From assembly GCA_020850325.1 (NCBI GenBank), contig JADZEW010000016.1, forward strand, positions 62,001 through 126,000: a DNA stretch of 64,000 nt. The letters are read 5' to 3'. This document shows positions 38,814 to 58,853 of this stretch, piece after piece. This DNA is from Methanoregulaceae archaeon. Lineage in GTDB: Bacteria > Armatimonadota > Fimbriimonadia > Fimbriimonadales > Fimbriimonadaceae. The notes under the pieces are model-generated. The model was not told the DNA's origin. It worked only from the letters and a program-made list of their open reading frames with translations, and made no database searches. Each line of letters opens with the position of its first letter. The first letter of the stretch is position 1. A program made the position numbers and the translations under genes.

Positions 38814-39392
38814 ATGATCGGGTGTGAGCAGCTGGGGAAGCGGTACGGAACCCGCTGGCTGTTCCGACACCTTGATCTCGACCTCCAGCCCGGAGACTGC
38901 CTGCTCGTCCTCGGCAGCAACGGGGCTGGCAAGAGCACCTTGCTCAAGCTGTTCGCGGGGATCATTCCCGCTTCCGAGGGGACGGTCCAACGGCCCGCGG
39001 ACCCGCGAACCGGGATTGGGTACGCCGCGCTCGATCAGTCGGTCTATCCCGTCCTCACCGTCCGTGAACACCTCGAACTCGCCGCTGAACTGCGCGGCTG
39101 CGCGCCGCGGGCCGATGAACTGCTCGAAGAAGTAGGCCTTTCCTACGCGGCCGAGTTCCCGGGGCGGCACCTTTCGACGGGCATGCGCGCCCGGCTGAAG
39201 TTTGCGCTCGCGATTCAGGCAGAACCCCCGGTCATCCTATTCGATGAGCCCGGGGCAGGTCTCGACGCCGCCGGCCGCGCGATGATCGGCAAGGTCATCG
39301 AGAAGCGCCGCGCGAAGACCGCCTTCATTCTTGCCACCAACGACCCCGAAGAAAGGAGGTTTGCCACCCATGAGCTCGAACTGGGGGAATGA
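38814..39392 (+). CDS. ccmA: Heme exporter ATP-binding protein CcmA
   Basis: A 192-residue ABC ATPase that, with CcmB, frees holo-CcmE from CcmC. Walker A LGSNGAGKST, signature LSTGMRARLKFA, Walker B VILFDEPGAGLD. Shorter than average ABC proteins, as expected for CcmA. Assignment rests on the gene order with ccmB, ccmC and ccmD. It overlaps ccmB by 23 bp. Confidence 0.87.
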   Translation: MIGCEQLGKRYGTRWLFRHLDLDLQPGDCLLVLGSNGAGKSTLLKLFAGIIPASEGTVQRPADPRTGIGYAALDQSVYPVLTVREHLELAAELRGCAPRADELLEEVGLSYAAEFPGRHLSTGMRARLKFALAIQAEPPVILFDEPGAGLDAAGRAMIGKVIEKRRAKTAFILATNDPEERRFATHELELGE

Positions 39393-40047
39393 GATACGCG
39401 CGGTCATCCGCAAAGAGCTCTGCACCGAAATGCGGAACAAGAGCGCGACCTTTACCGCGGTGATGCTGAGCGTAACGACCGTGTTCACGCTCGCGTTCGC
39501 GTTCTACGGCCGGCAGTTGACGGGCGACGGCGCCGCCGGCATGTTGTGGGCGGCGTTGCTCTTTGCCGGGGTGGGCACCCTCACCCGAGCCTTCATCGCC
39601 GAGGAGGAGCAAGGCACCGGCGATCTTCTGCGAATGTGGGCCCGGCCGCACGCGGTGTATTGGGGCAAGGCGATCTTCGCTTTCGGCCAGATGGCCCTTA
39701 CGGGGTTTCTGGTCGCCGCCCTGTTCCTGCTGCTTACCGGAGTGGGCGTGGCGACTCCGCTCATGCTCTTCGTTAGTTTATTAGGGGGAGCAGCCGCTCT
39801 TTCGGGCACGGTGACCCTGGTATCCGCGATGATCGCACGGGGGTCAAATCGCGGCACGTTGGCCGGCGTCGTCGCCTTGCCTCTGCTGCTGCCCCTGATC
39901 GCCCTCGGCGTCACCGCCGGCCGCAGCGCCTTCGAAGGATTGGCAACCTCGAGCGGCTGGGCGGGCACGGCGGGCGTCTGGCTGTATACTTTGCTCGTGT
40001 TTGCTACCGCGCCCTACCAGTTCGCAGCAATCTGGAGGGAACCATGA
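39370..40047 (+). CDS. ccmB: Heme exporter protein CcmB
   Basis: A 225-residue protein with six membrane helices and the CcmB opening (IRKELCTEMRNKSA). The conserved F-I-A-E-E-E-Q-G-T region (AFIAEEEQGTGDLLR) after helix 2 is diagnostic. ATG at 39370 has AGGAGG ten bases upstream, inside ccmA. It overlaps ccmC by 4 bp. Confidence 0.9.
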   Translation: MSSNWGNEIRAVIRKELCTEMRNKSATFTAVMLSVTTVFTLAFAFYGRQLTGDGAAGMLWAALLFAGVGTLTRAFIAEEEQGTGDLLRMWARPHAVYWGKAIFAFGQMALTGFLVAALFLLLTGVGVATPLMLFVSLLGGAAALSGTVTLVSAMIARGSNRGTLAGVVALPLLLPLIALGVTAGRSAFEGLATSSGWAGTAGVWLYTLLVFATAPYQFAAIWREP

Positions 40048-40763
40048 AGTGGCTGCTGCTCCTTGGGATGATCGTGGCGACGGTCTTCTCGTACCAAGTT
40101 GCCCCGGCGAAGGACTTCCCGCAGCCTGAGCTGGCCCGCATCATCTTCTTCCACCTGCCCTGTGCCTACGCGACCGCCGGGTTCTCGATCTTTGCCGCGA
40201 TCGCCTCGTGGAGGTATCTCGCTAAGCGAGACTGGATCTGGGAGTTCCGCGCCCACGCTGCGACCGAGATGGCGCTGACGCTCGGATGCGCGACGATGAT
40301 CACGGGCATTCTCTTCAGCAAGGTCCAATGGGGATCATGGTGGCACTGGGACGCCCGGCAGACGTCATTTCTGATCGTGCTCCTGTTGCTCGGCGCGTAT
40401 TTCGCGATCCGCATGGCCTTCGAGGAAGAGGTGTCGCGAGCACGGGTGAGTGCAGCGTATTCGTCGCTGACCCTGCTGCCGATTCTGTTCCTGATTTTCG
40501 TTTTCCCCAAGCTGCCGCAGGTCGCGAAGAACTCTCTGCACCCGCAGGGCGTCGTCGCCAAGGGCCGCTTCTCACCCGACTACTGGTCAGTGATTCTGAC
40601 CGTGTTCGTTCTCGTCCTCATCACGGCGATCTGGCTCTACAAGATGCACGTTCGCACGTCCGTTCTTACGCAATCGTTGAGAGATCAAGATGGAAACCTG
40701 GAAGATTCTGGCCGCAGTACCACCGCTCGTCGTGTGGATCAGTCTGTTTCTGTACATGAATAA
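40044..40763 (+). CDS. ccmC: Heme exporter protein CcmC
   Basis: A 239-residue, six-helix heme-handling protein. The tryptophan-rich WWD motif (WGSWWHWDARQT) is intact, and the flanking histidines (FFHLPCAYA; NSLHPQG) that ligate heme are present. It presents heme to CcmE. Its C-terminal end overlaps the ccmD-like gene. Confidence 0.93.
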   Translation: MKWLLLLGMIVATVFSYQVAPAKDFPQPELARIIFFHLPCAYATAGFSIFAAIASWRYLAKRDWIWEFRAHAATEMALTLGCATMITGILFSKVQWGSWWHWDARQTSFLIVLLLLGAYFAIRMAFEEEVSRARVSAAYSSLTLLPILFLIFVFPKLPQVAKNSLHPQGVVAKGRFSPDYWSVILTVFVLVLITAIWLYKMHVRTSVLTQSLRDQDGNLEDSGRSTTARRVDQSVSVHE

Positions 40764-44712: not shown

Positions 44713-45696
44713 TCAATCTCTCGCCACCCGCACGTAGCTCTCGGTCACCCAGTAGTGCCGCAGCACCCGCCGCGCGGTCCTGGTACCCGTTAACGCGAAA
44801 ATCTTCGACACCGGGTCGCTGGTCAGGCCGTCCTTCGCGACGACGGTCGCTTGGACGCGGTTCGTGACCGCCCACCCGGTGCGCGGATCAACCACATGCG
44901 AGTACCGCTTACCGCCGATGATCACGAACTGCTCGGTGTCGCCGGACGTCGAGACGGCGCAGTTGGAGAAGGTGCGGATTTCCCCACCCCCCAGCCCCCT
45001 CCCCGCGAGACGATCACTCGCAGAGAGGGGGAGACCGGAGAAGGGGAGCCCGGAAACCATGATCTTCCAGCCCAGCGCCCCGGGCGGGGCGTCCGACACC
45101 ACGATGTCGCCCCCCATTTCGACGAGCGCGCTCTTGACTCCATGAGCCCGAAGCACCTTCTGCGCCTCATCGCACGCGTAGCCCTTGGCAATGCCGCCGA
45201 GGTCGAGCTTCATTCCCGGTAGCCGAAGCCGGACGAACCGGGACGGCTTATCAAGAGTGAGATTGCGATAGCCAACCAGCCGGCGAGCCGCCTCGATCTC
45301 GGCTTTGGTGGGCAGCTGCGCCGTCCGCCGAGCCGTGCGCCACAGTTGGATCACCGGTGCGGCCGTGATATCGAAAGCGCCGCCGGTCAGTCTCGAAACA
45401 TCCTGAGCCCGAATGAAAACGATAAGCAAGTCGGGTGAAACCTGCACGGGTGGACCGCCGGCTCGCGCGCACAGGCGATTCAACTCGCTGTCCTTCCGAT
45501 AGTCGCTCATGATGGTGTCGAGTTCCGCGATCCTCGCAAAGGCCGCCGCGCACGCCTTTTCCGCCGTAACTTCATCAGGCGCGTAGGCGATGATGCGGGC
45601 GTCGACCCCCATGTGATATTGCGTAAAGGTAAAACGTTCAAGCGGCTGTGGCGTCGAAACCATAGCTGCGGCCACCAGACCCAATAGAACTCCCAT
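44713..45696 (-). CDS. apbE: FAD:protein FMN transferase ApbE
   Basis: Attaches FMN covalently to a Thr/Ser of partner proteins in the periplasm. Visible family features: HMGVDARI opening, DYRKDSELNRL, the KLDLGGIAKGYACDE motif, and SHVVDPRTGWAV. The N-terminus has a signal-like MGVLLGLVAAAMVS. A palindromic repeat (44982-45035) encodes an insert with LPLSASDRLAGRGLGGG between two conserved blocks. Its target (an FMN-binding domain protein) is not in the window. ATG 45696 overlaps the start of the divergent gene. Confidence 0.9.
   Translation of the reverse strand: MGVLLGLVAAAMVSTPQPLERFTFTQYHMGVDARIIAYAPDEVTAEKACAAAFARIAELDTIMSDYRKDSELNRLCARAGGPPVQVSPDLLIVFIRAQDVSRLTGGAFDITAAPVIQLWRTARRTAQLPTKAEIEAARRLVGYRNLTLDKPSRFVRLRLPGMKLDLGGIAKGYACDEAQKVLRAHGVKSALVEMGGDIVVSDAPPGALGWKIMVSGLPFSGLPLSASDRLAGRGLGGGEIRTFSNCAVSTSGDTEQFVIIGGKRYSHVVDPRTGWAVTNRVQATVVAKDGLTSDPVSKIFALTGTRTARRVLRHYWVTESYVRVARD
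44982..45035. repeat. Repeat family B, copy inside apbE
   Basis: The first 25 bases equal 9553-9577; a GAGAGGGGGAG arm follows after a longer loop. The frame of apbE stays open through it, adding about 18 residues. Confidence 0.8.
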
Positions 45697-46471
45697 GCTT
45701 GCCACTTTGATTGTTTTGACGTCTCTGCAGGACGGCGCCGTACTGCGACCTTTCACCGAAACGCTGCCCAAGTCTACGGCTAAGGTCGAGATGATCGCCG
45801 TGCCCGCGGGCAAAGTCAAGATCGGGAACAAGGAAGTCGAGGTCAAGCCGTTCTACATTGCGAAGACGGAGACCACCTGGGAGGCCTTCGATGCGTTCCT
45901 CGCGAGCGGAGAGCCGTCGAAACCCTATGATCAGACCGAGTTCGCCGCCGATGCGGTCGCTCGCCCCAGCCGCGGATACACCTTGCCCGATCTGGGGTGG
46001 GGCCACAACGGCTATCCCGCGATCAACCTGAACTACACCTCGGTGGAGATGTATACGCGGTGGCTGTCCTCGGTCACGAAGAAGAAGTATCGGCTGGCCA
46101 CGGAAGCGGAATGGGAGCTGGCCTGTCGCGCGGGCAAAGTCGGCAACGCGATGATGGATCTCGCCACCGCGAACAAGGTGGCCTGGCACGCGGGAAACAG
46201 CAAGGGCCAAACTCAGCCCGTCGGCAAGAAGGAAGCAAACGCGTGGGGCATCCACGATATGTACGGCAACGTTGGGGAATGGGTCCTCGATATGAAGGGC
46301 GAACCCGTCCTTGCCGGAGGCACCTTCCGCGACAAGTTGGACCTACAGATTCCGACCGCTCGACGGCCTTATGACCCGGATTGGCAGATGTCCGATCCGC
46401 AGCTTCCGAAGAGTCGGTGGTGGCTTTCTGACGGCCCCATCGTGGGTTTTCGAGTCGTCTGCGAGCCGTAG
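45695..46471 (+). CDS. SUMF1/formylglycine-generating-enzyme-like protein
   Basis: A 258-residue protein with a short hydrophobic N-terminus and an FGE-sulfatase domain: PAGKVKIGNKEVEVKPFYIAK start, TETTWEAFDAF, EAEWELACRAG, then YGNVGEWVLD and a final GFRVVCE. The paired catalytic cysteines of true FGE are not evident, so it may be an EgtB/PvdO-like relative. The start at 45695 overlaps the apbE ATG head to head (CATG); ATG 45791 would leave room for promoters. Confidence 0.8.
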   Translation: MLATLIVLTSLQDGAVLRPFTETLPKSTAKVEMIAVPAGKVKIGNKEVEVKPFYIAKTETTWEAFDAFLASGEPSKPYDQTEFAADAVARPSRGYTLPDLGWGHNGYPAINLNYTSVEMYTRWLSSVTKKKYRLATEAEWELACRAGKVGNAMMDLATANKVAWHAGNSKGQTQPVGKKEANAWGIHDMYGNVGEWVLDMKGEPVLAGGTFRDKLDLQIPTARRPYDPDWQMSDPQLPKSRWWLSDGPIVGFRVVCEP

Positions 46472-46656: not shown

Positions 46657-47631
46657 ATGAAGTATCAAGCCATCTTTCTTGCGATTGGCGTCTTGTTGTT
46701 GCTCTTCGGCTTTGCGCATTCAGAGCAGCAAGGCAAGGGGAAATCCCAAGCCGAGCGGATCTTCGCCCGCGCAACCGAAGACGACTACATGGGCAGCGAG
46801 GCATGTGCCAGCTGCCACGAAGATGTTTCAAAGGGGTTTGCGGCATCGCCTCACGCCCCGCTAATGGCCCATGCTGGCCTACCGCTGGATAAGCAAGGTT
46901 GCGAAGGATGCCACGGACCGGGCCGCATCCACCAAGCCGAAGAAAACGCCGAAGTTATCGCGTTCCGCAAGATGACGCCGGAAGAATCCAGCGCCGCCTG
47001 TATGCGATGCCACGGCCAAACCCTGAGCGAAGTGCATTGGAAGGTCAACGAGCACAAGAAAGCTGGCCTGTCCTGCGTTTCGTGCCATCAGATTCACCCG
47101 ACCTCCGACCCCGCACTTACGGGCGTGAAGAAAGGTAACGCCAAGGATGCTCGCTCACCGATCTTTGTGGCCAATGTCGATCCCAAGGCCATGCTGAAAG
47201 CCGATGAGGCCACGCTGTGCGGTTCCTGCCACGGGCCTACCTTGGGCGACTTCAAGCACGCTTCTCACCACCCGGTTCCTGAGGGTTCCATGGTGTGCAG
47301 CGACTGCCATACTCCGCACCCCACCAAGGATGCGAAGGTTCGCAAAGACGCGTTGAAGAACAACTGTGTCACGTGCCATACCGAAATGGCGGGACCCTTC
47401 GTATTCGAGCATGATCCGGTTTCCGGCCACACGGGCGACGGCTGTCTGGAATGCCACCAGCCGCACGGCTCGAACAACCCGAAGATGTTGAACTCGGTAT
47501 CCCGCGGCCTATGCTCTCAGTGTCACACCGACAAACTGGGCCGCCACTACCCGGGTCAAACCTGTTGGACGGCTGGTTGCCATGTCGCATCGCACGGAAG
47601 CAACACGGATCCGCGATTCTTGAAGCATTGA
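46657..47631 (+). CDS. Decaheme c-type cytochrome (DmsE/MtrA-like)
   Basis: A 324-residue exported protein with a hydrophobic signal. It holds ten heme motifs: nine CxxCH (CASCH, CEGCH, CMRCH, CVSCH, CGSCH, CSDCH, CVTCH, CLECH, CSQCH) and one CX4CH (CWTAGCH). The opening (YMGSEACASCHEDV) and the HHPVPEG-S-M block match DmsE/MtrA-type periplasmic or barrel-inserted decahemes. It lies 8 bp before an outer-membrane barrel gene, the mtrA-mtrB order. Confidence 0.9.
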   Translation: MKYQAIFLAIGVLLLLFGFAHSEQQGKGKSQAERIFARATEDDYMGSEACASCHEDVSKGFAASPHAPLMAHAGLPLDKQGCEGCHGPGRIHQAEENAEVIAFRKMTPEESSAACMRCHGQTLSEVHWKVNEHKKAGLSCVSCHQIHPTSDPALTGVKKGNAKDARSPIFVANVDPKAMLKADEATLCGSCHGPTLGDFKHASHHPVPEGSMVCSDCHTPHPTKDAKVRKDALKNNCVTCHTEMAGPFVFEHDPVSGHTGDGCLECHQPHGSNNPKMLNSVSRGLCSQCHTDKLGRHYPGQTCWTAGCHVASHGSNTDPRFLKH

Positions 47632-47639
47632 GGCCTATC

Positions 47640-49271
47640 ATGAGTCAAACCACACTGCGCAATCTAGCATCGCTCGCGGGAGTTCTCGTGCTGGCGATGG
47701 GGGCGTGGGCTCAGGAAACGACGCCCGCGGAGGAACCCGAAGAGCAGGAAGAAGTCGAAATCCCCGTCCGGTACAACTCGCTGACCTTTGGCTATTCCAC
47801 TTGGAAAGCTAGCGGCAACCGGTTTCGGATGGGCCAGTTCGCCCGTGTCCCCGAGGGGCTCACGCTGGCCGAGCTGAAGTACATGAGCCCGGGCGGCGAG
47901 GGCCATCCGTATTACTCCTTGGTCTGGCGAGGTACGCCGGGTCAGGACTCGTACGGCTCTGGGTTGGTGTATCTCAACTCCGGCCTGACCGCAATCCGCG
48001 GCAGCGTCCAAGAGCGGCAATACTACGCCGAACCCAGCTGGGTTCCTACGGCACGAAGCCGCGACAAGGTCGGCACGATTTCAGTCGAGCATGCGATCGC
48101 TCCAAACATTGGAGCTTTTGTCAGCTACCGCAGCGATGATCGCTCGCAGAGCTACGTTCCTCCTAAGGCTACGGGACGGGTGCGCTCGCGAACAGTCGCC
48201 GGCGGGCTGGAGGGTCGATTTGGCCCGATCCAAGCCGGAGTGAACATTACGGACCGCCGCACCTTCGACGACACCGGCCGTCAGCCAGCAACGCTGCAAC
48301 GCCGCATCGAGGCTCACATCGCCGGCACGCTCGGTGACCGATTGAGTCTGCAAGGCGCCGCGGGATACACGCGGATCGAGCAGGCGGGTCGGCCTTCCGG
48401 CAACGTCCGAACCCTGGCCATGGCGGGCTACGTCGACCTAGGCCCGGCAACCTCGTTGCAGTTCAACGCGGGACGAGACGAGTTCGACATCCGCAACATG
48501 GTTCAGAACGCCTACACCCGGAAACGGTTCAACTCAGGCCTGAAACTGAACCACCAACTCGGCAGCTGGAACCTCCAGCTTGGATTCCGTCACCGAGAGG
48601 CGGAGCGCGTTCGCACCGATCGCACGTTCGTCGATGTTCCCAAGTGGAACACGTACGATGCGCGCCTCAGCGGACGGCTCAATAACGGTATCCGCGTGAC
48701 CCTACGTGGAAACTGGGAAGACATGACCGCCTCGGCCCGAATCGCTGGCCCCGACCCGCGGCAAATGCTGTGGGACGACAAGGCGATGGGCCAAATCAAG
48801 TTGGACGGCGGAAACGAGCTGTTCACCGGCTATGCGAGCTACACCTACCGATTCCGCCAGAACAAGCAACGCGGCGTGGACGTAGGCTGGCAAAACATCG
48901 CACTCGGTGGAAGCTATCAGTTCGCACCGAGCCTGCTCGGCTATGCCGAGTGGAGCTACGACGCGATTCGCGCGAAGGGTGCTTCGGAAGGCACCAGCGA
49001 TACGCTGGATACGTTCTTCCCGAACAGCACGGCATTCTCGATGGGTCTCGACTGGGTTCGCAATGAACGCGAGACTCTGTCGGCCAGCTTGAACACCTTT
49101 GGCACCAACAACTGGAGCGGCACTCAGCTGACGCTGCAGTATCGCCGCCAAATCTCGGCCGACCACTCACTCGATCTGGTCGTCGCGCCTTGGCGGTTTT
49201 CTGATCGACTCTACGGACTTACGGGGTATGAAACGACATTCCTCGGGGTTCGCTACACGGTGAAGTTTTGA
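47640..49271 (+). CDS. Outer-membrane beta-barrel protein (MtrB/PioB-like)
   Basis: A 543-residue protein with a signal ending near GAWAQ and an acidic N-terminal segment. Many amphipathic strands with aromatic girdles follow, and it ends in TVKF with a terminal aromatic, as for Bam-inserted barrels. About 26-28 strands are plausible. Identification as the porin of a porin-cytochrome conduit rests on the flanking multihemes. GAGG six bases before ATG 47640 supports the start. Confidence 0.78.
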   Translation: MSQTTLRNLASLAGVLVLAMGAWAQETTPAEEPEEQEEVEIPVRYNSLTFGYSTWKASGNRFRMGQFARVPEGLTLAELKYMSPGGEGHPYYSLVWRGTPGQDSYGSGLVYLNSGLTAIRGSVQERQYYAEPSWVPTARSRDKVGTISVEHAIAPNIGAFVSYRSDDRSQSYVPPKATGRVRSRTVAGGLEGRFGPIQAGVNITDRRTFDDTGRQPATLQRRIEAHIAGTLGDRLSLQGAAGYTRIEQAGRPSGNVRTLAMAGYVDLGPATSLQFNAGRDEFDIRNMVQNAYTRKRFNSGLKLNHQLGSWNLQLGFRHREAERVRTDRTFVDVPKWNTYDARLSGRLNNGIRVTLRGNWEDMTASARIAGPDPRQMLWDDKAMGQIKLDGGNELFTGYASYTYRFRQNKQRGVDVGWQNIALGGSYQFAPSLLGYAEWSYDAIRAKGASEGTSDTLDTFFPNSTAFSMGLDWVRNERETLSASLNTFGTNNWSGTQLTLQYRRQISADHSLDLVVAPWRFSDRLYGLTGYETTFLGVRYTVKF

Positions 49272-49317
49272 ATCTTTCGCTACGGAGAGAAGGAACAGTT
49301 ACGAACGGAGGACTACT

Positions 49318-50760
49318 ATGAGATCTCGATGGCTCATGACCCTGTTTGCGTCGATTCCCATCATCGCGGCGGCGCTGGCCCTCCAGAGCTGCGGCGGCGT
49401 GGGTGGACCGCAAACGGATACGGGTGGATTGCCGTCAGTGACCCAGCAGTTTCTCGCCTTGCTAGGGGTTGACCAAAAGTCAGCCACCTACATCGGGGCG
49501 GATGCCTGCGCTGGATGTCACGGCGGTAAGAATCCCGACGACCCAATCTACGCTCACTGGAAGGACACAGTTCACGCCGAAAAAGGTGTGACCTGCGAAC
49601 GATGCCACGGCCCGGGAAGCGCCCACCAGGCGGCCCCGTCCAAGGAAAACATCTTGACCTTCCCCAAATCCCACTCGCCGGTCGTGTGCGCACAGTGCCA
49701 CGGTCCGACGCATGACCAGTACAATTTCTCGCAGCACTCGAAGCTGATCGTAGACCCGGTCGAGGAAGCAATCCTCAACCCCAATCAATACGGTCGCAAC
49801 TCGCGATGTATCTCTTGTCACAGCGGCTTGTTCGCAACCGAAATCGTGGCAAAGGGTGTTGATGTTGCTGCGATGACCGACGACGAGATCAAGCACATCG
49901 CGGAAGCAACGCTTACCACGGTGCCGCATTCGGCATCCTGCGTGACTTGCCACAATCCTCATAAGAAGACGGGCAACCTTACCGACAGCGGCAAGGAAGT
50001 GATGCTCCGCAATAAGACGTTTAACTCGGACACGACGGATGTCGGCCCGGGAACGACGGCCCAGCAGTTCACCAACTTCGACCACGGTTGCGCCAAGTGC
50101 CACAACGGCCGCGGCACCAACCCGGCCGACGCCCGGTTGCAAGCATCGACGGCTCGTCCCAGCATGCACGACAGCAATCAGTACAACATGCTGATGGGCT
50201 TCGGCGGTGTGGAAGGTACCGGCCCGGTCCAGCGCAATACGGCTCACGCCAACGCGCCTGGACAGTGCAGCAAGTGCCACATGCCCGATTCGCGGCACAC
50301 CTTCACGGTGAGCTTCGACAAGGGATGCGCGCCGTGCCACTCGGCAGCCGATGCCGCCGCCCGGACGGGGCAAGTGAAGTCGGAAGTTCTCGGTTTGCTG
50401 ACCTCCCTGCGCGGCCGAATGGAAGCGTGGGCAGCGGCGAACCTCGGCGATGCCGACTTCTGGGACTACACGTCGGTCATCCAGGGCGAAGGCAAGACGC
50501 CTCCGAACCAGGCCAACGTGCCGATCGAGATCAAGCGAGCTCGACACAACTACTACTTCATCATCCGCTCGGGCGATTACGGCGTGCACAACGCCCCGTA
50601 TGCCAAGCACTTGGTGACCGTAGCCAACACGAACCTGGACGCGCTGAATGCGCCAAGACCGGCCGCTCCGAACATGAGCGCTGAGCAGCAGCTCAGAGTC
50701 ATCGAAGAGCACCGAAAGAGGGCTAACCAGGCAGAGATGAATCTGCCGGAAGACAACTAG
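49318..50760 (+). CDS. Octaheme c-type cytochrome lipoprotein
   Basis: A 480-residue protein with a lipobox (ALQSC, C25) and eight CxxCH motifs (CAGCH, CERCH, CAQCH, CISCH, CVTCH, CAKCH, CSKCH, CAPCH). The hemes occupy the first ~350 residues; the remainder is helical and heme-free. As a lipoprotein next to a barrel and a decaheme it may be the outer-face terminal reductase (MtrC/OmcA role). Gene order places it third in the cluster. Confidence 0.88.
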   Translation: MRSRWLMTLFASIPIIAAALALQSCGGVGGPQTDTGGLPSVTQQFLALLGVDQKSATYIGADACAGCHGGKNPDDPIYAHWKDTVHAEKGVTCERCHGPGSAHQAAPSKENILTFPKSHSPVVCAQCHGPTHDQYNFSQHSKLIVDPVEEAILNPNQYGRNSRCISCHSGLFATEIVAKGVDVAAMTDDEIKHIAEATLTTVPHSASCVTCHNPHKKTGNLTDSGKEVMLRNKTFNSDTTDVGPGTTAQQFTNFDHGCAKCHNGRGTNPADARLQASTARPSMHDSNQYNMLMGFGGVEGTGPVQRNTAHANAPGQCSKCHMPDSRHTFTVSFDKGCAPCHSAADAAARTGQVKSEVLGLLTSLRGRMEAWAAANLGDADFWDYTSVIQGEGKTPPNQANVPIEIKRARHNYYFIIRSGDYGVHNAPYAKHLVTVANTNLDALNAPRPAAPNMSAEQQLRVIEEHRKRANQAEMNLPEDN

Positions 50761-50767
50761 CCGATCC

Positions 50768-50799
50768 GCTCCGTGCCAATCTCCGGGTTGGCACGGAGC
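50768..50799 (+). promoter_or_regulatory. Strong intercistronic hairpin before ccmF
   Basis: A perfect 12-pair stem GCTCCGTGCCAA/TTGGCACGGAGC with an 8-nt loop, no T-tract. It could lower readthrough or protect the upstream mRNA, uncoupling cytochrome and maturation gene levels. The arm sequence also occurs at 22446-22457. Confidence 0.55.
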
Positions 50800-50823
50800 A
50801 ACCCTTGATTTGGATTCGAAACC

Positions 50824-53217
50824 ATGACCGAACTAGACCCGAACAACCTCGTCTCACCGCCCAGTTGGTCCCTCGCTCTGGGTACAGGTTGTCGAGCCCT
50901 CGTCATCGCCGCCGCTCTGTTCTTTGCGATCTCGGCCCTCGCCTGGTACATCAGTCCGCGCAAGCAGTCTCTCGAACGCGTGGGCGCTTGGTCTTTCACC
51001 CTCGGGTGCCTTTCGCTCTTCGGCACCTTCCTTGGGCTCGCGACGCTCTTTGTCGCCAATCGATTTGAATACGAATACGTGTGGGGACACGCCGACACCA
51101 AGAACGCGGTTCCTTATCGCATCGCAGGCATCTGGTCGGGTCAAGAGGGAAGCTTCCTGCTTTGGGCCGTCTGTGCGGCCGTCTTCGGCGTTCTCGCCGT
51201 TCGGCACGCCCAGAACTTACGACGATGGTTCAGCATTGTCTATGCGCTGTTCCTGGGCGCGCTCTCGAACATCCTGGCCTTCGAGTCGCCGTTTGACTTG
51301 AACAAGTTCGAGGGTACGCCCTTTGTCCCCGTCGAGGGCATGGGACTTGCCCCATCGTTGCAGAACTACTGGGTGACGATCCACCCCCCGACGATCTTCC
51401 TCGGATTTGGATCGCTCACGGTTCTTTTCGCCCTCGCGATCGCCGCGTTGGTTCGGCGCGACTACGACGAGTGGTTGCCGATCGTGCGGCCCTGGGCCAT
51501 TATCTCGGCGACGCTGGTCGGCGTCGGTCTCTGCATGGGTGGATTCTGGGCCTACGAGACCCTTGGCTGGGGCGGCTTCTGGATGTGGGATCCGGTCGAA
51601 AACGTCAGCTTTGTCCCCTGGTGCTTTGTTGTCGCGCTCATCCACGGCATCATCGTCCAGTCGACGCGAAAGACCTGGAAGATCACGAACACGCTTCTCG
51701 CTTCACTCCCCTTCCTCGCTTTTGTTTACGGCACCTTCCTAACGCGTTCGGGCCTGCTTTCCGAGGCCAGCGTCCACAGCTTTGCCGAGATGGATCGCTC
51801 GGCCCTCAAACTGCTTGTGGCCGTCATGGGCGGCTCGGTGCTCGGTTTCTTGGGCCTGTGGACGGTTCGAGCCTTCCAGGCGCGCCGAAGTACGATGCAC
51901 GCCGATGAGCCGGGCGGCGTGTTCCGTCGGGAAGTCTTCTACATGATGGGCGCGCTGCTGCTGGTCCTCATGGGTCTCGCGACCGCGATCGGCATGAGCG
52001 TCCCCTTGGTCATGGCGCTCATGGGCCAGAAGCCCAAGGTCGTCGAGGAAGCGCTGTACCACCAGGTACTCCCCTACATCTTCATTCCGCTGATGCTGCT
52101 CATGGCGATAACGCCCTTCGTGAGTTGGCGATCCATGAAGCCGAAGGAGTTCTGGGGACGCTTCTACTCGATCGCCTGCATCGCGATCGGTCTAACCGGC
52201 ATCACCCTCTTCTTGACGGTCGTTACACCGGCCCGAACCCTCATCAACTTGAACCCGACCATCACCATGACCGGCGGTTACAAGGTCAAGGGGCTGATGT
52301 TCCTGTTGCTGCTGGTGGGCATCTGCTACATGGTGCTCGTCGCCAACACGTGGCGTGTCATCGAACTCGTCAAGCGCACAAAGATGGGCGTGATGTCGTT
52401 CATGTCGCACATCGGCATCGCGATCCTCATGGCGGGACTCATTGTCTCTCGCGGATTCGAGCAACATGATGAAACGGTGGTCATGCGAGATCACCCGGGG
52501 CGGCTACTCGGCTACGAAGTGCATTACAAGGGCATGACGTCCGATCTTGCGGATCGGAACAACCAAGTGCTCTTCGAACTCCGCGACCCGCACAAGAATG
52601 GTGAAGTTCTCTTCACGGCCAGTCCCGGCCTCTATAACGTGCGCCAGGGCGATCAAATGAACTCGATGGTCTGGCCGCACATTGAGCGCGGCATCCTCCA
52701 CGATGTCTACGTTTCGCTGGGTCCGCCTCAAGATCGTGCTAGCCAAGATGTGAACGTTCCCCTTGGTAAGTCAGTCAAACTCGGTGAGCTGACCCTAACT
52801 TACGAAGAGATGGTGCGCGAAGGGGAGATGGGCTCGAAGGGCACCCTTTTCGGAGCCAAGATCAAGGTTACTGGGCAAGGCCGTGACGACACGATCATTC
52901 CGAAGCTGGAAATCGGTACGGGAGGCGACACCGTGGAACACGCGGTCGAACTCGACCAGAACATGCAGCTCGTCATGACCGGCATGAATGCCGCAGACCG
53001 CTCGATAACCATTCGTGTGCAGCTCAACACTCCGATTTATCCCGTCGAGATCTTCCATAAGCCGCTCGTCGGGCTAGTTTGGCTGGGGACGGCGATCATG
53101 ACGATCGCCGGTTTCCTCGCCGCCGCTTATCGCCGATACCGCGGGCCGCGCCCAACCGATGTCTCAGATTCAAATGAGGCGAAATCGGAGGCCCCCCCGC
53201 TCGTCAAATCAATGTAA
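50824..53217 (+). CDS. ccmF: Cytochrome c maturation protein CcmF
   Basis: A 797-residue membrane protein, heme lyase of the system I pathway. The WWD domain (GWGGFWMWDPVENVSF) and the flanking histidines (TIHPPTIFLG; ASVHSFAEMD) are clear, with about 14-15 helices and a ~150-residue C-terminal periplasmic region. It is longer than the ~650-residue E. coli protein. It lies within the cytochrome cluster, away from ccmABCD. CcmG and CcmH are not in the window. Confidence 0.95.
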   Translation: MTELDPNNLVSPPSWSLALGTGCRALVIAAALFFAISALAWYISPRKQSLERVGAWSFTLGCLSLFGTFLGLATLFVANRFEYEYVWGHADTKNAVPYRIAGIWSGQEGSFLLWAVCAAVFGVLAVRHAQNLRRWFSIVYALFLGALSNILAFESPFDLNKFEGTPFVPVEGMGLAPSLQNYWVTIHPPTIFLGFGSLTVLFALAIAALVRRDYDEWLPIVRPWAIISATLVGVGLCMGGFWAYETLGWGGFWMWDPVENVSFVPWCFVVALIHGIIVQSTRKTWKITNTLLASLPFLAFVYGTFLTRSGLLSEASVHSFAEMDRSALKLLVAVMGGSVLGFLGLWTVRAFQARRSTMHADEPGGVFRREVFYMMGALLLVLMGLATAIGMSVPLVMALMGQKPKVVEEALYHQVLPYIFIPLMLLMAITPFVSWRSMKPKEFWGRFYSIACIAIGLTGITLFLTVVTPARTLINLNPTITMTGGYKVKGLMFLLLLVGICYMVLVANTWRVIELVKRTKMGVMSFMSHIGIAILMAGLIVSRGFEQHDETVVMRDHPGRLLGYEVHYKGMTSDLADRNNQVLFELRDPHKNGEVLFTASPGLYNVRQGDQMNSMVWPHIERGILHDVYVSLGPPQDRASQDVNVPLGKSVKLGELTLTYEEMVREGEMGSKGTLFGAKIKVTGQGRDDTIIPKLEIGTGGDTVEHAVELDQNMQLVMTGMNAADRSITIRVQLNTPIYPVEIFHKPLVGLVWLGTAIMTIAGFLAAAYRRYRGPRPTDVSDSNEAKSEAPPLVKSM

Positions 53218-53227
53218 GGAGAAAATG

Positions 53228-53554
53228 ATGAAACGACTACTCACCGTCAGCATGATCGCCGGCCTCGGAGCTCTCGCGATGGCGTTTGCCCCGATTGGTA
53301 AGGCCTTTGACGACCACTACAAGGTCGCGAAGGACTCGGGCCTGAAGAAGGCGGCATGCGCTGTCTGCCACGTGTCACCCAAGGGGGGCAAACTCAATCC
53401 CTACGGGCTCGATATGCAGGCCGAGATGAAGAAGGCTAAGTCCAAGAAGCTGACGCCGGCTATTCTCAAGGAGCTCGAGAACCTCGACTCCGACAAGGAC
53501 GGCAAGAAGAACATCGACGAAATCAAGGCTGACAGCAACCCTGGTCTCAAGTAA
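53228..53554 (+). CDS. Small monoheme cytochrome-like protein with EF-hand-like loop
   Basis: A roughly 108-residue exported protein: signal to about residue 26 (MAFAPIGKAF), one CxxCH (CAVCH), and a C-terminal LDSDKDGKKNIDEI with the D-x-D-x-D-G pattern of a calcium-binding loop. AAGGAG lies six bases before ATG 53228 (53225 is the adjacent alternative). A likely soluble periplasmic electron carrier or dockerin-like helper. Confidence 0.75.
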   Translation: MKRLLTVSMIAGLGALAMAFAPIGKAFDDHYKVAKDSGLKKAACAVCHVSPKGGKLNPYGLDMQAEMKKAKSKKLTPAILKELENLDSDKDGKKNIDEIKADSNPGLK

Positions 53555-53575
53555 ATGAACTTCAGGAGGGGTGGA

Positions 53576-55531
53576 ATGCGTAACTCAGAGCAATCTTCGC
53601 TGATCAAGCGGCTCATGCTCCCTATTGGGCGTCGCGTTCTGCCCCTCCTTCTCGCTACTGTGCCGTTTGTCTTGGTCGGTGTGTTTGCCCAAGACCTGTT
53701 AGCGCAACCCGATAAGAACCTCGTCCAAGAGCGGTCAGAGACGAACCAGGCCTGCATGGGCTGTCACGATCCGGAAACCGAATCGGCTCCCGCCGTACAC
53801 ATGGCGGCTCTGGACAAGTCCCCCCACAAAGACCTGGACTGCACCAGCTGCCACTCCAGCTTTACGCCTGAGTATCCGCACACGGATGAGATGAAGGCGG
53901 AGAAGCCGGATTGTGCCTCTTGCCACCCCGACGCCGCCGATGCCTTGATGCTGAGCGTCCACGGCAAGATCGAGAACTTCCCCGAAGATGCCCCGACCTG
54001 CATCTCCTGCCACACGACCGGCACCGACCCGCACGCGGTGGTTCGCCCCAGCGAAGGCACTCGCAAAGAGCGAGTCAAGCTGTGCTCCTCGTGCCACAAC
54101 GATATCGCCAAGATGGAGCGACACGAGGTCGATACCGACGCCGTGCCCTCCTACGAGGCCAGTTTCCACGGTAAGGCCCTCCTGCGATTTGGTCGCGAAG
54201 ACACCGCGATCTGTACCGATTGTCATACCGGCCACAGCGTATTGGCATCCTCCGAACCGGAGTCGACCACCCATCGCGAAAACCTGACGAAGACGTGCGG
54301 CCAAGCTGGTTGCCACGTTGGCGCGACGATGAACTTCGCGAACTCGGGCTTCAGCCACCTGCACATCACGGTGAAGAATGACCCGCTTCTGACCGCGACC
54401 GAGTGGTTCTTCAAGATTCTCACCTTTGGCGTCCTCGGACTCCTGCTGCTCGGCATCTTGTTCGACATGCGGGTGGCACTCTTTGGCAAGAAGCCCCCCG
54501 GGGTCTCTCCGCCGGTGGTGGTCTTTGTCGCGCTCGGCTTTGCGACGCTGATCGCCTCGATCATGCTTGCCGTCTTCGCGAATCCCTTCGGCTACTACAC
54601 GACGATCGCCTCAGTTGGGTTCGGCATGCTAGCCGCAGGCACCCACATCGTCACCAAGAAGAAGAAGGCAAAGGTCGAGGGCGTCAAGAGATACCAGCGG
54701 TTTACGGTTTCCCAACGAATCCAGCACCTGCTGACGATCATCACCTTCACGCTGCTCGTGGTGACGGGCATGCCGATCCGCTACCCGAACAACGATTTCC
54801 TTCATGCCTTCTACATGTCGATGGGTGGCATGGAAGTGATGCAGGTCGTGCACCGCGGGGCCGCCATCGGCCTGATCGCGGTGTGGATCTACCACACGCT
54901 CGAGCTCTTGGTGCGGTGGAAGAAGGCTAACTTCAGTTTTGACTCGTGGACGATGTGGCCGCGAAAACGCGACATCAGCGACTTGGTGGGGACAGTCAAG
55001 TATCACTTGGGCAAGAGCCCGCACCCGCCGTCCTACGATCGCTTCCAGTTCCGCGAGAAGTTCGACTACTTCGCCGTCTACTGGGGCATGCCGATCATGG
55101 TCTTCTCCGGCCTCATCCTGTGGTTCCCGGTGTTCTTCGGCGGATTCTTGCCGGACACCGGCATTCCGCTGGCCTACATTGCTCACTCGGATGAATCAGT
55201 GCTCGCGTTCTTGACCATCGTTACGTGGCACTTCTACAACACGCACTTCAAACCGTCGAGTTTCCCGATGAACCCGGTCTTCATCACGGGCACGCTCACT
55301 GAGGAAGAAATGCGCGAAGAGCATGGCGATGAGTTGAAGCGCATCCAGGCGATGGAAGGCATAGCGTCGGATACCGCCGAGGCTGCCGCCGACGAAGTCG
55401 CCGAGGAGCCCACCGAGGAAGCCACGGACGTCGAGCAGGTAGAGGAGTCGGATGAATCTCCTGCCGCCACGGCCGATGAGCCGGTAGCCGACGGGGCGCA
55501 AGAGCCCACGGACGAAGAACGGAAGGATTAA
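53576..55531 (+). CDS. Heptaheme c / cytochrome b membrane fusion (CbcL-like)
   Basis: A 651-residue fusion. The exported N-terminal half has six CxxCH (CMGCH, CTSCH, CASCH, CISCH, CSSCH, CTDCH) and one CX4CH (CGQAGCH). The C-terminal half has about six membrane helices with heme-b-type histidines (RIQHLLTI; VHRGAAIGLIAVWIYHTLEL; VTWHFYNTHF). It ends in FPMNPVFITGTLTEEEM and an E/D-rich tail of about 70 residues. The layout is that of CbcL-type quinol oxidases. GGAGG six bases upstream of ATG 53576 sets the start. Confidence 0.88.
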   Translation: MRNSEQSSLIKRLMLPIGRRVLPLLLATVPFVLVGVFAQDLLAQPDKNLVQERSETNQACMGCHDPETESAPAVHMAALDKSPHKDLDCTSCHSSFTPEYPHTDEMKAEKPDCASCHPDAADALMLSVHGKIENFPEDAPTCISCHTTGTDPHAVVRPSEGTRKERVKLCSSCHNDIAKMERHEVDTDAVPSYEASFHGKALLRFGREDTAICTDCHTGHSVLASSEPESTTHRENLTKTCGQAGCHVGATMNFANSGFSHLHITVKNDPLLTATEWFFKILTFGVLGLLLLGILFDMRVALFGKKPPGVSPPVVVFVALGFATLIASIMLAVFANPFGYYTTIASVGFGMLAAGTHIVTKKKKAKVEGVKRYQRFTVSQRIQHLLTIITFTLLVVTGMPIRYPNNDFLHAFYMSMGGMEVMQVVHRGAAIGLIAVWIYHTLELLVRWKKANFSFDSWTMWPRKRDISDLVGTVKYHLGKSPHPPSYDRFQFREKFDYFAVYWGMPIMVFSGLILWFPVFFGGFLPDTGIPLAYIAHSDESVLAFLTIVTWHFYNTHFKPSSFPMNPVFITGTLTEEEMREEHGDELKRIQAMEGIASDTAEAAADEVAEEPTEEATDVEQVEESDESPAATADEPVADGAQEPTDEERKD

Positions 55532-55545
55532 GACAGAGAGACATT

Positions 55546-55938
55546 ATGAGACAAGGTGCATTGATTTCTGGAGTCGTCGCCCTCGTGGCGACCGTGGGGC
55601 TGACGACGGTGTTCGTCCAGAACGCCAGCCCTTACGTCACTATCAAAGAGGCCGCTGCGCAAAGCCGCGACGTCCACGTCGTGGGGCAGCTTGTTCCCGG
55701 GTCGCTGTCGTTGAACACCCTCGGCCGCGAGACCCGCTTCGTGCTGAAGGATGAGACCGGGGAGATTCCGGTGGTGTACACCGGCCCTCCGCAGTCCAAC
55801 CTCGCGTCGGCGACGCAAGTGGTGGTCATCGGCTACCACGAGAACGGATCGTTCCATTCGAAGCAGATGCTCGTGAAGTGTCCTTCGAAGTACGAGAGCG
55901 AGAAGGACGCCGCCTCGAAAGTAAAGACTCCGGCGTAG
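55546..55938 (+). CDS. ccmE: Cytochrome c maturation protein CcmE (CxxxY type)
   Basis: A 130-residue membrane-anchored OB-fold heme chaperone: one N-terminal helix, GQLVPGSLSL, then FVLKDETGEIPVVYTG. At the heme-binding position the usual His is replaced: C112-P-S-K-Y116, the CxxxY variant described for archaea and some sulfate reducers. It lies 14 bp after the CbcL-like gene and closes the cluster. Confidence 0.85.
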   Translation: MRQGALISGVVALVATVGLTTVFVQNASPYVTIKEAAAQSRDVHVVGQLVPGSLSLNTLGRETRFVLKDETGEIPVVYTGPPQSNLASATQVVVIGYHENGSFHSKQMLVKCPSKYESEKDAASKVKTPA

Positions 55939-56011: not shown

Positions 56012-56353
56012 CTACTTCCCTTTGAGCGTGAAACTTGTGCCGCAACCGCAGCTGCGGGCGGCGTTGGGGTTGTCAAAGCGGAAGCCGCCGCCAATCAAGT
56101 TACCGGTGTACTCGATCTCAGTCCCCTGCAGGATCTCCGCCGAGCGCGGATCGCACACCAGGGTCACCCCTTCCTCGACCTCGCAGACCAGATCGTTTTC
56201 GCGCGGCAGGTCCTCGGGCCGCATCATGTACTCGAATCCCGAGCAACCGCCCCCCTTCACCCCGATACGGAGGATCGACTTGTCTTGCCGCTTGAGAAGG
56301 TGCCGCACCCGAACGAGCGCTGTTTCGGTCAGTCGATAGGGAAAATCGCTCAC
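56012..56353 (-). CDS. Iron-sulfur cluster carrier, IscA/SufA/ErpA family
   Basis: A 113-residue A-type carrier with the three ligand cysteines C37 (GGCSGFEY), C102 and C104 (SCGCGTSF). It starts at GTG 56353 in a GTGA overlap with the Rrf2 gene; the frame is open further upstream but not conserved. It is the last gene of the suf operon. Confidence 0.92.
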   Translation of the reverse strand: MSDFPYRLTETALVRVRHLLKRQDKSILRIGVKGGGCSGFEYMMRPEDLPRENDLVCEVEEGVTLVCDPRSAEILQGTEIEYTGNLIGGGFRFDNPNAARSCGCGTSFTLKGK

Positions 56354-56817
56354 TCGGTCCGCCCTCGGATGCCCGCCGGCACGGCGCCCATCACGGTCAC
56401 TGGCACTTCCGGCTCGTCGCGAATGATGTCGGCGAGTGAAATCTCGTCCAACACCGAATCCACCGCGTCTTGCACTCGCGACCACAACGAGCGGATCGTA
56501 CACGCGAACGAGTGCGCGCACACATCGCCCTTGCCACTGTGTTTCCCGCAGAACTCCTCGTCGTAAAGTCGGCCACCCAGGTGGGCGAGCGCTTCGTTGA
56601 CGCTGATCTGCTCGGCCGGGCGAGCGAGTGCGTAGCCGCCGGTTTGTCCGCGCGTACTGGTCACGAACTCTCCCTTGCGCAAGATCATGAGCAGCTTCGC
56701 GACGTGGGCTTCGGTCAGCCCTTCGCGCCGGCTAATCTCGGGAATCGTGATCCCTTCCTTGCGGCCGACTGCCACCAGACACCGCAACCCGTACTCTTCT
56801 TGCGCAGAAAACTTCAT
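56350..56817 (-). CDS. Rrf2-family regulator (IscR/SufR-like)
   Basis: A 155-residue winged-helix protein (MKFSAQEEYGLRCLV; TSTRGQTGGYALARP). Three cysteines after the recognition wing (C90, C100, C106) could hold a [2Fe-2S] or [4Fe-4S] cluster, so it likely senses Fe-S status. It lies inside the suf operon and probably controls it; a dyad near the sufS start is a candidate operator. Confidence 0.9.
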   Translation of the reverse strand: MKFSAQEEYGLRCLVAVGRKEGITIPEISRREGLTEAHVAKLLMILRKGEFVTSTRGQTGGYALARPAEQISVNEALAHLGGRLYDEEFCGKHSGKGDVCAHSFACTIRSLWSRVQDAVDSVLDEISLADIIRDEPEVPVTVMGAVPAGIRGRTE

Positions 56818-57180
56818 CTACATCAGCCCCAGCATCAGTTTGACGTCTTCCGACATCCGATCAAGGGTGAACGGCGGATCCCAAGTGAGTTCGACCGTCA
56901 CCTTTCCTACGCCAGGAGTCTGGCTTGCCGCCATCTCGACTTCGCCAGGAAGCGACCCGGCTACCGGGCACGCGGGCGACGTCAGGGTCATGACGATGTG
57001 CGCCGATGCATCGTCGGCGATGATGATGTCGTAGATCAGGCCCAGATCGTACACGTTCACCGGAATCTCCGGGTCGTAGACCTGGCGAATCTGCTCCACG
57101 ATTTCGCTCTCGAGCACGCGTTTCTGAATCGGGTTCAGCGGCGCCGCTGCGGTTGGGGTCGGTTCGATGGGTTTGGGCAT
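56818..57180 (-). CDS. MIP18/SufT-like protein (DUF59)
   Basis: A 120-residue protein with a DUF59 core: VYDPEIPVNVYDLGLIYD, then MTLTSPACP with the conserved Cys, and LTWDPPFTLDRMSED. Family members help mature Fe-S proteins. It is 3 bp downstream of sufU and 0 bp upstream of the Rrf2 gene. Confidence 0.9.
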   Translation of the reverse strand: MPKPIEPTPTAAAPLNPIQKRVLESEIVEQIRQVYDPEIPVNVYDLGLIYDIIIADDASAHIVMTLTSPACPVAGSLPGEVEMAASQTPGVGKVTVELTWDPPFTLDRMSEDVKLMLGLM

Positions 57181-57183
57181 GGG

Positions 57184-57630
57184 TTACTCCGTCGAGACGC
57201 GGCCGTCTCCCGCAAGCGCGGCGTGAAGGGTGTGCCAGGCAAGGGTCGCACACTTAACCCGCATCGGATACTCGCGGACCCCAGCGAAGGCCTGGAGCTT
57301 GTCCAGCCCGTCTTCGGGAAAGCCCTCGATCGCCGCGTCGTCGGTAAGCATCGCGTGGAAGCGCTGGAAGATCGCCTCCGCCTCCTCGACCGTCCGCCCA
57401 CGAAGGGCTTCCGTCATGAGCGAGGCGCTCGCGGTCGAGATCGCGCACCCTTGCCCGACAAAGCTCACATCCTCGACGATGCCGTCTCGCACCACCGCGT
57501 ACACGTGGATCTGATCGCCGCACAGCGGGTTGTGACCGTCAGCTTCGTGGCTCGGATGCTCGATCACCCGGCGGTTGCGGGGGGCTCGGTTGTGGTCGAG
57601 AATCAAGTCCTGATAAAGCTCGCTCATCAT
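57184..57630 (-). CDS. sufU: SufU-type sulfur transfer / scaffold protein
   Basis: A 148-residue NifU-N-like protein with C37 (NPLCGDQI), C62 (GCAIS) and C127 (KCATLAW), and the 18-20-residue insert typical of SufU. SufU accepts sulfur from SufS using a zinc site. ATG 57630 overlaps the sufS stop (ATGA). Confidence 0.93.
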   Translation of the reverse strand: MMSELYQDLILDHNRAPRNRRVIEHPSHEADGHNPLCGDQIHVYAVVRDGIVEDVSFVGQGCAISTASASLMTEALRGRTVEEAEAIFQRFHAMLTDDAAIEGFPEDGLDKLQAFAGVREYPMRVKCATLAWHTLHAALAGDGRVSTE

Positions 57631-58853
57631 AGGCCGAACACCTCCCGGACCCGGCGCAGAGCCGAGGCAAGCACATCGATGTCTTCCCGGGTGTTGTAGA
57701 GCGCGAGCGAGGCCCGCGCAGTTGCCGCCACCCCCAGACGCGCCATCAGTGGCTGGCAACAATGGTGCCCGGCGCGCACCGCTACGCCCTCGCTGTCGAG
57801 AATCGTGCCGATGTCGTGCGGGTGAACGTCGGCCATTGTGAAGCTGATCGTGCCCGCCTTGCCGGGGGCGGTGCCGTGGATCTTGAGTCCGGGAATCTCG
57901 CTGAGCCGTTCGTGTGTGTACAGCGTCAGTTCCGACTCCAAGTGGTGGGCATCTTCGAGCCGAGGCGAGAGGAACTCGATCGCCGCACCGAGGCCGATCG
58001 CATCGGCAATGTTCGGGGTGCCGGGCTCGAACTTGTCGGGAAGAGCCGCGTAGGTGGTCTTCTCGAAAGTCACCGAGCGGATCATGCCTCCGCCGAGTTG
58101 ATAGGGCGGCATGGCGTCGAGCAGTTCGCGGCGCCCGTACAGCGCTCCGATTCCGGTAGGGCCATACATCTTGTGGCTGGCCATGGTGTAGAAGTCGACT
58201 CCGGCGGCCTGAACATCCATCCTCAGGTGGCCAAGCGCCTGGGCTCCATCGACGAGCACCTTGGCTCCGACCGCGTGCGCCATCTGGGTGATCTCCAGGA
58301 TCGGGTTAACCGTACCCAGCACGTTGCTGACGTGGGTGACGCCCACCATCTTCACGCGCTCGTCGAGCAACTTCGCCATCGCTTCCATATCCAGCGAGCC
58401 GTCGTCAAGAATCGGCACAACAATGATCTCGGCACCCGTTTGTTGCGCGACCACCTGCCATGGAACGATGTTCGCGTGATGCTCCATCTCGGTAAGCATG
58501 ATGCGATCGCCGGGTTGCAGGAACGTGCGTCCCCAACTCGCGGCGACGAGGTTGATCGCCTCGGTGCTGCCTTTCGTGAAGACGACTTCGGCATCCTCCC
58601 GAGCGTTGATGAACCCTTGGAGCAGTCTTCGGGCGTGCTCAAACTGATCGGTGGCGCGCTGGCTGAGGGCATGGACGCCCCGGTGGACGTTCGCGTGGGA
58701 GTGGCGGTAGTAGTCGCTGATCGTGTCGATGACGACATCCGGCTTCTGGGTCGACGCCGCGTTGTCGAGATAAACCAGCCGTTTCCCGCGGATGGTTTCC
58801 TTAAGGATGGGGAATTGTTCTCGAGTCGATTCAAGCGCGGCAAGAGCCATCAC
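57627..58853 (-). CDS. sufS: Cysteine desulfurase SufS
   Basis: A 408-residue PLP enzyme taking sulfur from cysteine. PLP lysine K228 (MASHKMYG), catalytic cysteine in GHHCCQPLM (C365, followed by an extra C366), and the VYLDNAASTQKP opening. First gene of the operon sufS-sufU-sufT-rrf2-iscA. SufB, SufC and SufD are absent from the window. Confidence 0.95.
   Translation of the reverse strand: MMALAALESTREQFPILKETIRGKRLVYLDNAASTQKPDVVIDTISDYYRHSHANVHRGVHALSQRATDQFEHARRLLQGFINAREDAEVVFTKGSTEAINLVAASWGRTFLQPGDRIMLTEMEHHANIVPWQVVAQQTGAEIIVVPILDDGSLDMEAMAKLLDERVKMVGVTHVSNVLGTVNPILEITQMAHAVGAKVLVDGAQALGHLRMDVQAAGVDFYTMASHKMYGPTGIGALYGRRELLDAMPPYQLGGGMIRSVTFEKTTYAALPDKFEPGTPNIADAIGLGAAIEFLSPRLEDAHHLESELTLYTHERLSEIPGLKIHGTAPGKAGTISFTMADVHPHDIGTILDSEGVAVRAGHHCCQPLMARLGVAATARASLALYNTREDIDVLASALRRVREVFGL

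Follow-up and report, generated by a model that had tools for sequence, protein, structure and literature searches.

The stretch of DNA analysed here (the window) comprises 64,000 nucleotides, positions 62001-126000 of contig C16. It belongs to a 3.5 Mb metagenome-assembled genome (MAG) that is 98% complete and assigned to the Fimbriimonadaceae, Armatimonadota. Seven genes lie between positions 46657 and 55938 of the window, all on the plus strand and separated by gaps of 8, 46, 63, 7, 0 and 14 bp. In order, they encode a decaheme cytochrome, an outer-membrane barrel, an octaheme lipoprotein, CcmF, a small monoheme protein, a fusion of a heptaheme c part with cytochrome b, and CcmE. The initial annotation had listed these seven genes in one direction over the same coordinates, and its total of 26 c-type heme motifs is correct, provided that two CX4CH sites are counted along with 24 CX2CH motifs. 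The decaheme protein contains nine CX2CH and one CX4CH, the lipoprotein eight CX2CH, the monoheme protein a single motif, and the cytochrome b fusion six CX2CH and one CX4CH. Composition-matched shuffled proteins had a mean of 0.02-0.10 CX2CH motifs and a maximum of two.

The first gene (46657..47631, +) encodes the decaheme cytochrome, which has a signal peptide. The protein passed the DmsE family model TIGR03508 narrowly, with 193.3 bits against a cut-off of 192.2, and it matched MtrA (6r2q_A) at 1e-32 as a single sequence and at 3.5e-52 as a profile. In the alignment of 28 homologues, ten proximal and ten other histidines were fully invariant. The comparison with MtrA profiles, a check proposed at the outset, therefore returned an MtrA/DmsE family match with a bis-histidine set for ten hemes. 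The last motif reads CX4CH in the Armatimonadota rows that reach the site and CX2CH in an acidobacterial homologue (L015). Since the histidine sets are invariant in both proteins, and since two homologues of the heptaheme fusion carry CX2CH where the window protein has its CX4CH, the alignments suggest that heme is genuinely bound at both CX4CH motifs.

The second gene (47640..49271, +) encodes the barrel. No Pfam match was obtained up to an E value of 10, and the NCBIfam model GSU2204 scored just 17 bits, far below its cut-off of 350. The profile search against the PDB also failed to identify the barrel; it gave weak matches to two ordinary porins (8jto and 8wv0), which we dismissed as generic barrel resemblance. 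Given that the sequence routes (Pfam and the PDB profile) failed, the identity of the protein was settled by fold. The AlphaFold2 (AF2) model was built from 27 homologues, with a predicted local distance difference test score (pLDDT) of 86.9 and a predicted template modelling score (pTM) of 0.75, and it has 26 strands. MtrB was the top Foldseek match (2.9e-12). In VIA-align, the model was superimposed on MtrB (6r2q_B) with a Z score of 26.3 and a root-mean-square deviation (rmsd) of 2.8 over 487 aligned residues, and the runner-up, a siderophore receptor, reached a Z score of 17.2. The protein has no cysteine. Judging from the model, the barrel is MtrB-like by fold and lies outside the MtrB/PioB families by sequence. 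The family check on the barrel thus yielded the MtrB fold without a family profile match. An MtrA/DmsE-family decaheme next to an MtrB-fold barrel bears out the porin-cytochrome architecture that had been claimed for this locus.

The third gene (49318..50760, +) encodes a putative outer-face cytochrome. It has a lipobox (LQSC), the Cys25 of which was invariant in the homologue alignment. Its eight proximal histidines were also invariant, at sites that are CX2CH or equivalent. In the profile search, OmhA ranked first (6qvm, 1.5e-13) and OcwA second (6i5b, 8.3e-12), followed by MccA and NrfA. The AF2 model was of moderate confidence only (pLDDT 63.7, pTM 0.45). Its best fold matches were OcwA (Z 8.4, rmsd 5.8, 290 residues aligned) and OmhA (Z 7.9, rmsd 5.8, 305 residues aligned); MccA tied with them over a short C-terminal stretch only. 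Because sequence and fold agree, the fold being the weaker of the two, OcwA and OmhA appear to be the nearest solved relatives of the lipoprotein. OcwA is related to NrfA, has a three-helix C-terminal bundle and is unrelated to MtrC, and both OcwA and OmhA are surface terminal reductases (PMC6703420).

The initial annotation had set this lipoprotein apart from MtrC by its eight hemes and a heme-free C-terminus. The comparison with MtrC had to be corrected, as the nearest solved relatives appear to be OcwA and OmhA, followed by the NrfA and MccA types. The supposedly heme-free end of the protein looks like the C-terminal helices of the OcwA fold and has an invariant histidine in the motif GVHN. 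A shortened MtrC was likewise rejected, since the protein has eight hemes instead of ten, has no MtrC-family Pfam match, and is best matched by OcwA and OmhA. MtrC-type chains were also missing from the fold matches, which carries little weight with a moderate model. Seven non-motif histidines were invariant for the eight hemes, and position 215 is either His or Met. In alignment A2, His occupies this position in most of the class, and the rows of Chthonomonas type (L009, L011, L012 and L014) have Met instead, possibly a natural swap of heme ligands.

Seven invariant non-motif histidines against eight hemes mean that one heme could be open. In that case the conduit might feed a surface enzyme, the octaheme protein itself, which would reduce an extracellular soluble compound such as nitrite, hydroxylamine, tetrathionate or sulfite. 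An analogy is offered by Shewanella, where the conduit DmsE/DmsF supplies a dimethyl sulfoxide reductase outside the cell. However, the His or Met at position 215 is available as the eighth ligand, and the octaheme protein has neither CXXCK nor a long catalytic motif (CX12-15CH), all eight motifs of the window protein being CX2CH. Moreover, the genome carries a separate NrfA-like gene with CXXCK. A match to a known periplasmic nitrite, sulfite or tetrathionate reductase had been named as the result that would speak against a conduit; these motifs are absent, and NrfA and MccA rank below OmhA and OcwA. We regard a surface enzyme as unlikely.

The sixth gene (53555..55531, +) encodes a protein of 658 amino acids with seven c hemes (cytochrome c7 domains) and a cytochrome b561-type domain (PF01292). 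Among 12 homologues, seven proximal and seven further histidines of the c part were invariant, and six more invariant histidines lie in the membrane and C-terminal part. A multiheme c part joined to a b561-type membrane part is the layout of CbcL, MtrH and MtoC (PMC6295460). The CbcL-like protein was found in 20 of the 34 genomes of the class that encode the octaheme protein and in none of the 79 others (p = 2e-13; the co-occurrence p values given here treat genomes as independent and ignore shared ancestry). The designation of the fusion as CbcL-type was upheld by this layout and by the confinement to conduit genomes. By analogy with CbcL, the fusion would trade electrons with the quinone pool.

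The gene just upstream (53225..53554, +) encodes the small monoheme protein, a possible periplasmic carrier with a signal peptide, one CX2CH motif and a faint resemblance to the GEGP diheme proteins. It is kept in most clusters. It had been called EF-hand-like; the sole basis for this label is a DSDKDGKKN stretch, which is indeed present, and Pfam gave just a sub-threshold match to Temptin_C. Clusters without the CbcL-like gene mostly carry, at its place, a fusion of a monoheme part with DUF2231 (PF09990), as in L074 (11974-12771, +) and also in L071, L081, L082, L008 and L078. Among the 34 octaheme genomes, 19 have the CbcL-like gene only, 11 the DUF2231 fusion only, one has both and three have neither (p = 1e-5). 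The membrane part of the DUF2231 fusion has five invariant histidines. These results suggest that one electron-input unit stands in for the other, and the monoheme-DUF2231 fusion is a candidate for a new quinone-linked electron unit.

Two heme maturation genes are interleaved with these cytochrome genes. CcmF (50824..53217, +; PF01578 and PF16327) is a second heme lyase, of the cluster type, and CcmE (55546..55938, +; PF03100) is a second copy with the heme-binding motif CXXXY. The housekeeping CcmE-CcmF pair is located on contig C21 (L024:9000-11793), away from any cytochrome gene seen, and CXXXY is present in both CcmE copies of the genome. The ccmABC genes (38814-40763) lie 6 kb upstream of the operon. 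They comprise an ABC ATPase that is CcmA by its position beside ccmB and ccmC (38814..39392, +; PF00005), CcmB (39373..40047, +; PF03379, 2.4e-18) and a CcmC-like protein (40044..40763, +; PF01578, 8.6e-18). We found no CcmH in this genome. A Ccm set without CcmH and with a CXXXY-type CcmE is streamlined, as in archaea (PMC9084895). In one relative, the conduit is immediately preceded by open reading frames (ORFs) resembling ccmB and ccmC (L008:8288-9825), so that maturation genes are nearer there. Elsewhere in the window's genome, on contig C30 (L025:4294-8328), an NrfA-like gene with four CX2CH motifs and CXXCK has a multiheme partner upstream; downstream of it are an ORF of 407 amino acids, ResB-like by position alone, and then a CcsA-like gene. 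These genes look like another, independent route of cytochrome maturation that would serve the nitrite reductase.

We counted CcmF in good genomes only, with split matches merged by hand. Two CcmF were found in 23 of the 31 octaheme genomes and in one of the 57 genomes without the octaheme protein (p = 2e-13). In the CcmF tree, one branch separates off the cluster copies; its support is modest (67/96), and some forks close to it are open. Interleaved maturation genes had been called unusual; the arrangement is conserved here, but it is precedented in kind by nrfEFG and sirEFG (PMC6976685). NrfEFG and SirEFG are lyases dedicated to CXXCK and CX12NKGCH, respectively, and are operon-borne for NrfA and SirA (PMC6976685). 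Given that lyases dedicated to odd motifs are known (PMC6976685) and that every Armatimonadota decaheme reaching the site has CX4CH there, the operon CcmF and CcmE might likewise be specialists for CX4CH. Three observations disagree with this. Genomes G043, G069 and G070 keep a CX4CH decaheme without a linked CcmF; the cluster-type CcmF is the only CcmF found in G018, G072 and G084, and therefore looks like a general lyase; and a single position discriminates the cluster and housekeeping types at the 90% level. Specialization for CX4CH is thus quite improbable. The simplest reading is that the cluster CcmF and CcmE, which would serve the operon cytochromes, are extra attachment capacity for a heme-rich client.

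The decaheme, barrel and octaheme genes are adjacent both in the loci of the window's class and in Chthonomonas/Chthonomonadales records, that is, in two lineages. The octaheme protein occurs in 34 of the 113 genomes of the class and in 61 of the 291 species genomes of the phylum. Contamination of the MAG and an oddity of one genome were rejected as explanations, as the cluster is carried by relatives with single-contig genomes (G061, G069 and G070). An Omp85/BamA gene was found in the host genome, which makes an outer membrane in the host very likely.

These results indicate that the operon most probably encodes an MtrCAB-type conduit across the outer membrane, with an OcwA-type outer cytochrome, co-inherited heme lyase genes and outward as the likeliest direction. 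In the proposed scheme, the MtrA-like decaheme would sit inside the 26-strand MtrB-like barrel and connect the periplasm with the octaheme lipoprotein of OcwA/OmhA type outside. Exchange with the quinone pool would be the task of the CbcL-like cytochrome b/c protein, with the small monoheme protein as a possible bridge across the periplasm. Electrons would then pass from the quinone pool through the CbcL-like unit, possibly the monoheme carrier, the decaheme in the barrel and the octaheme protein to the outside. The operon CcmF and CcmE would add heme-attachment capacity for the 26 hemes, alongside the upstream ccmABC. The order of the genes, their families, the barrel fold, the conserved heme ligands, the recurrence across the phylum and the co-occurrence were observed here, whereas we infer complex formation, surface exposure, the direction of the electrons, the acceptor and the service of CcmE and CcmF to these cytochromes. 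An outward direction, meaning respiration of an extracellular acceptor, is favoured because the outer cytochrome is related to terminal reductases.

Several points weigh against this interpretation. The octaheme model is of moderate quality (pLDDT 63.7), and a Z score of 8.4 alone is not decisive and may reflect a common arrangement. The link between the conduit and a second CcmF is not absolute, as evidenced by four genomes with the former and without the latter (G043, G069, G070 and G071). Surface exposure of the lipoprotein would not be readable from sequence, which fixes neither direction nor acceptor. The same conduit could run inward, drawing on Fe(II), minerals or partner cells and delivering their electrons to quinone or a terminal oxidase, and homologues of CbcL, MtrH and MtoC are found in iron reducers and iron oxidisers alike (PMC6295460). 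However, the inward MtoAB and PioAB clusters often have no outer cytochrome (PMC4245776), whereas the one found here is conserved and is kin to terminal reductases. An inward direction is accordingly doubtful. With the conduit as the preferred reading, Armatimonadota probably exchange electrons with the outside world.

Immediately upstream of the conduit are genes for an ApbE flavin transferase (44716-45846, -) and an FGE-like protein (45695-46468, +). G065 and G042 (L069 and L072) have this pair close to the conduit as well, and a tie of the conduit to flavinylation is possible. Genes that by inspection resemble ErpA, Rrf2, SufT, SufU and SufS, for Fe-S assembly, converge on the 3' end of the operon (56012-58853, -).

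No MtrAB-type conduit was reported for Armatimonadota in the literature searched, although absence there is not proof. A 2025 hot-spring study noted, for one lineage of Armatimonadota, multiheme cytochromes embedded in the membrane that it did not specify further (PMC11788075), and a 2018 survey of CbcL did not mention the phylum (PMC6295460). We tentatively propose that Armatimonadota may have a phylum-wide conduit class of their own, with an MtrAB-type core, an OcwA-type cap that is otherwise Gram-positive, interchangeable CbcL-like and monoheme-DUF2231 modules, and co-inherited CcmE and CcmF. The operon would extend MtrAB-type conduits to a poorly studied phylum. It would also combine two designs of surface cytochrome that were each linked to a different type of cell envelope until now, a point of relevance to the spread of extracellular respiration. 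Two cases lend themselves to testing, namely the inheritance of heme-lyase genes together with the cytochromes that they would serve, and the possible role of DUF2231 as a new quinone-linked unit.

Compared with known systems, the operon resembles MtrCAB of Shewanella and its relatives DmsEF, MtoAB and PioAB in the MtrA-family decaheme, the 26-strand MtrB-fold barrel and the outer lipoprotein cytochrome. It differs from MtrCAB in that the barrel is free of cysteine and below Pfam detection, the last decaheme site is CX4CH, the outer cytochrome is an OcwA/OmhA-like octaheme protein, and the operon includes a CbcL-like unit and CcmE/CcmF. A barrel with periplasmic and outer multiheme cytochromes is also found in the Geobacter Pcc system (OmbB-OmaB-OmcB). 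The Pcc porins, however, are phylogenetically unrelated to Mtr and have 18-22 predicted strands (PMC4245776), as opposed to the 26 strands of our model and its MtrA-family decaheme partner. As in NrfEFG and SirEFG, a CcmF paralogue is encoded beside its own multiheme cytochrome; those systems serve an odd motif of one enzyme with CcmH/CcmI-like partners, whereas CcmF pairs with CcmE here. The cytochrome b fusion is likened by layout to CbcL, MtrH and MtoC, with an N-terminal multiheme c part, a b561-type membrane part and a link to a conduit, but it has seven c hemes, one of them at CX4CH, where CbcL of G. sulfurreducens has nine CX2CH motifs. Finally, OcwA of Thermincola and OmhA of Carboxydothermus are the best profile and fold matches of the outer cytochrome, which appears to share the helical C-terminal part with the GVHN histidine. 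It has eight hemes, compared with nine in OcwA and 11 in OmhA, and unlike these Gram-positive wall proteins it is a lipoprotein that accompanies a barrel conduit in a bacterium with an outer membrane.
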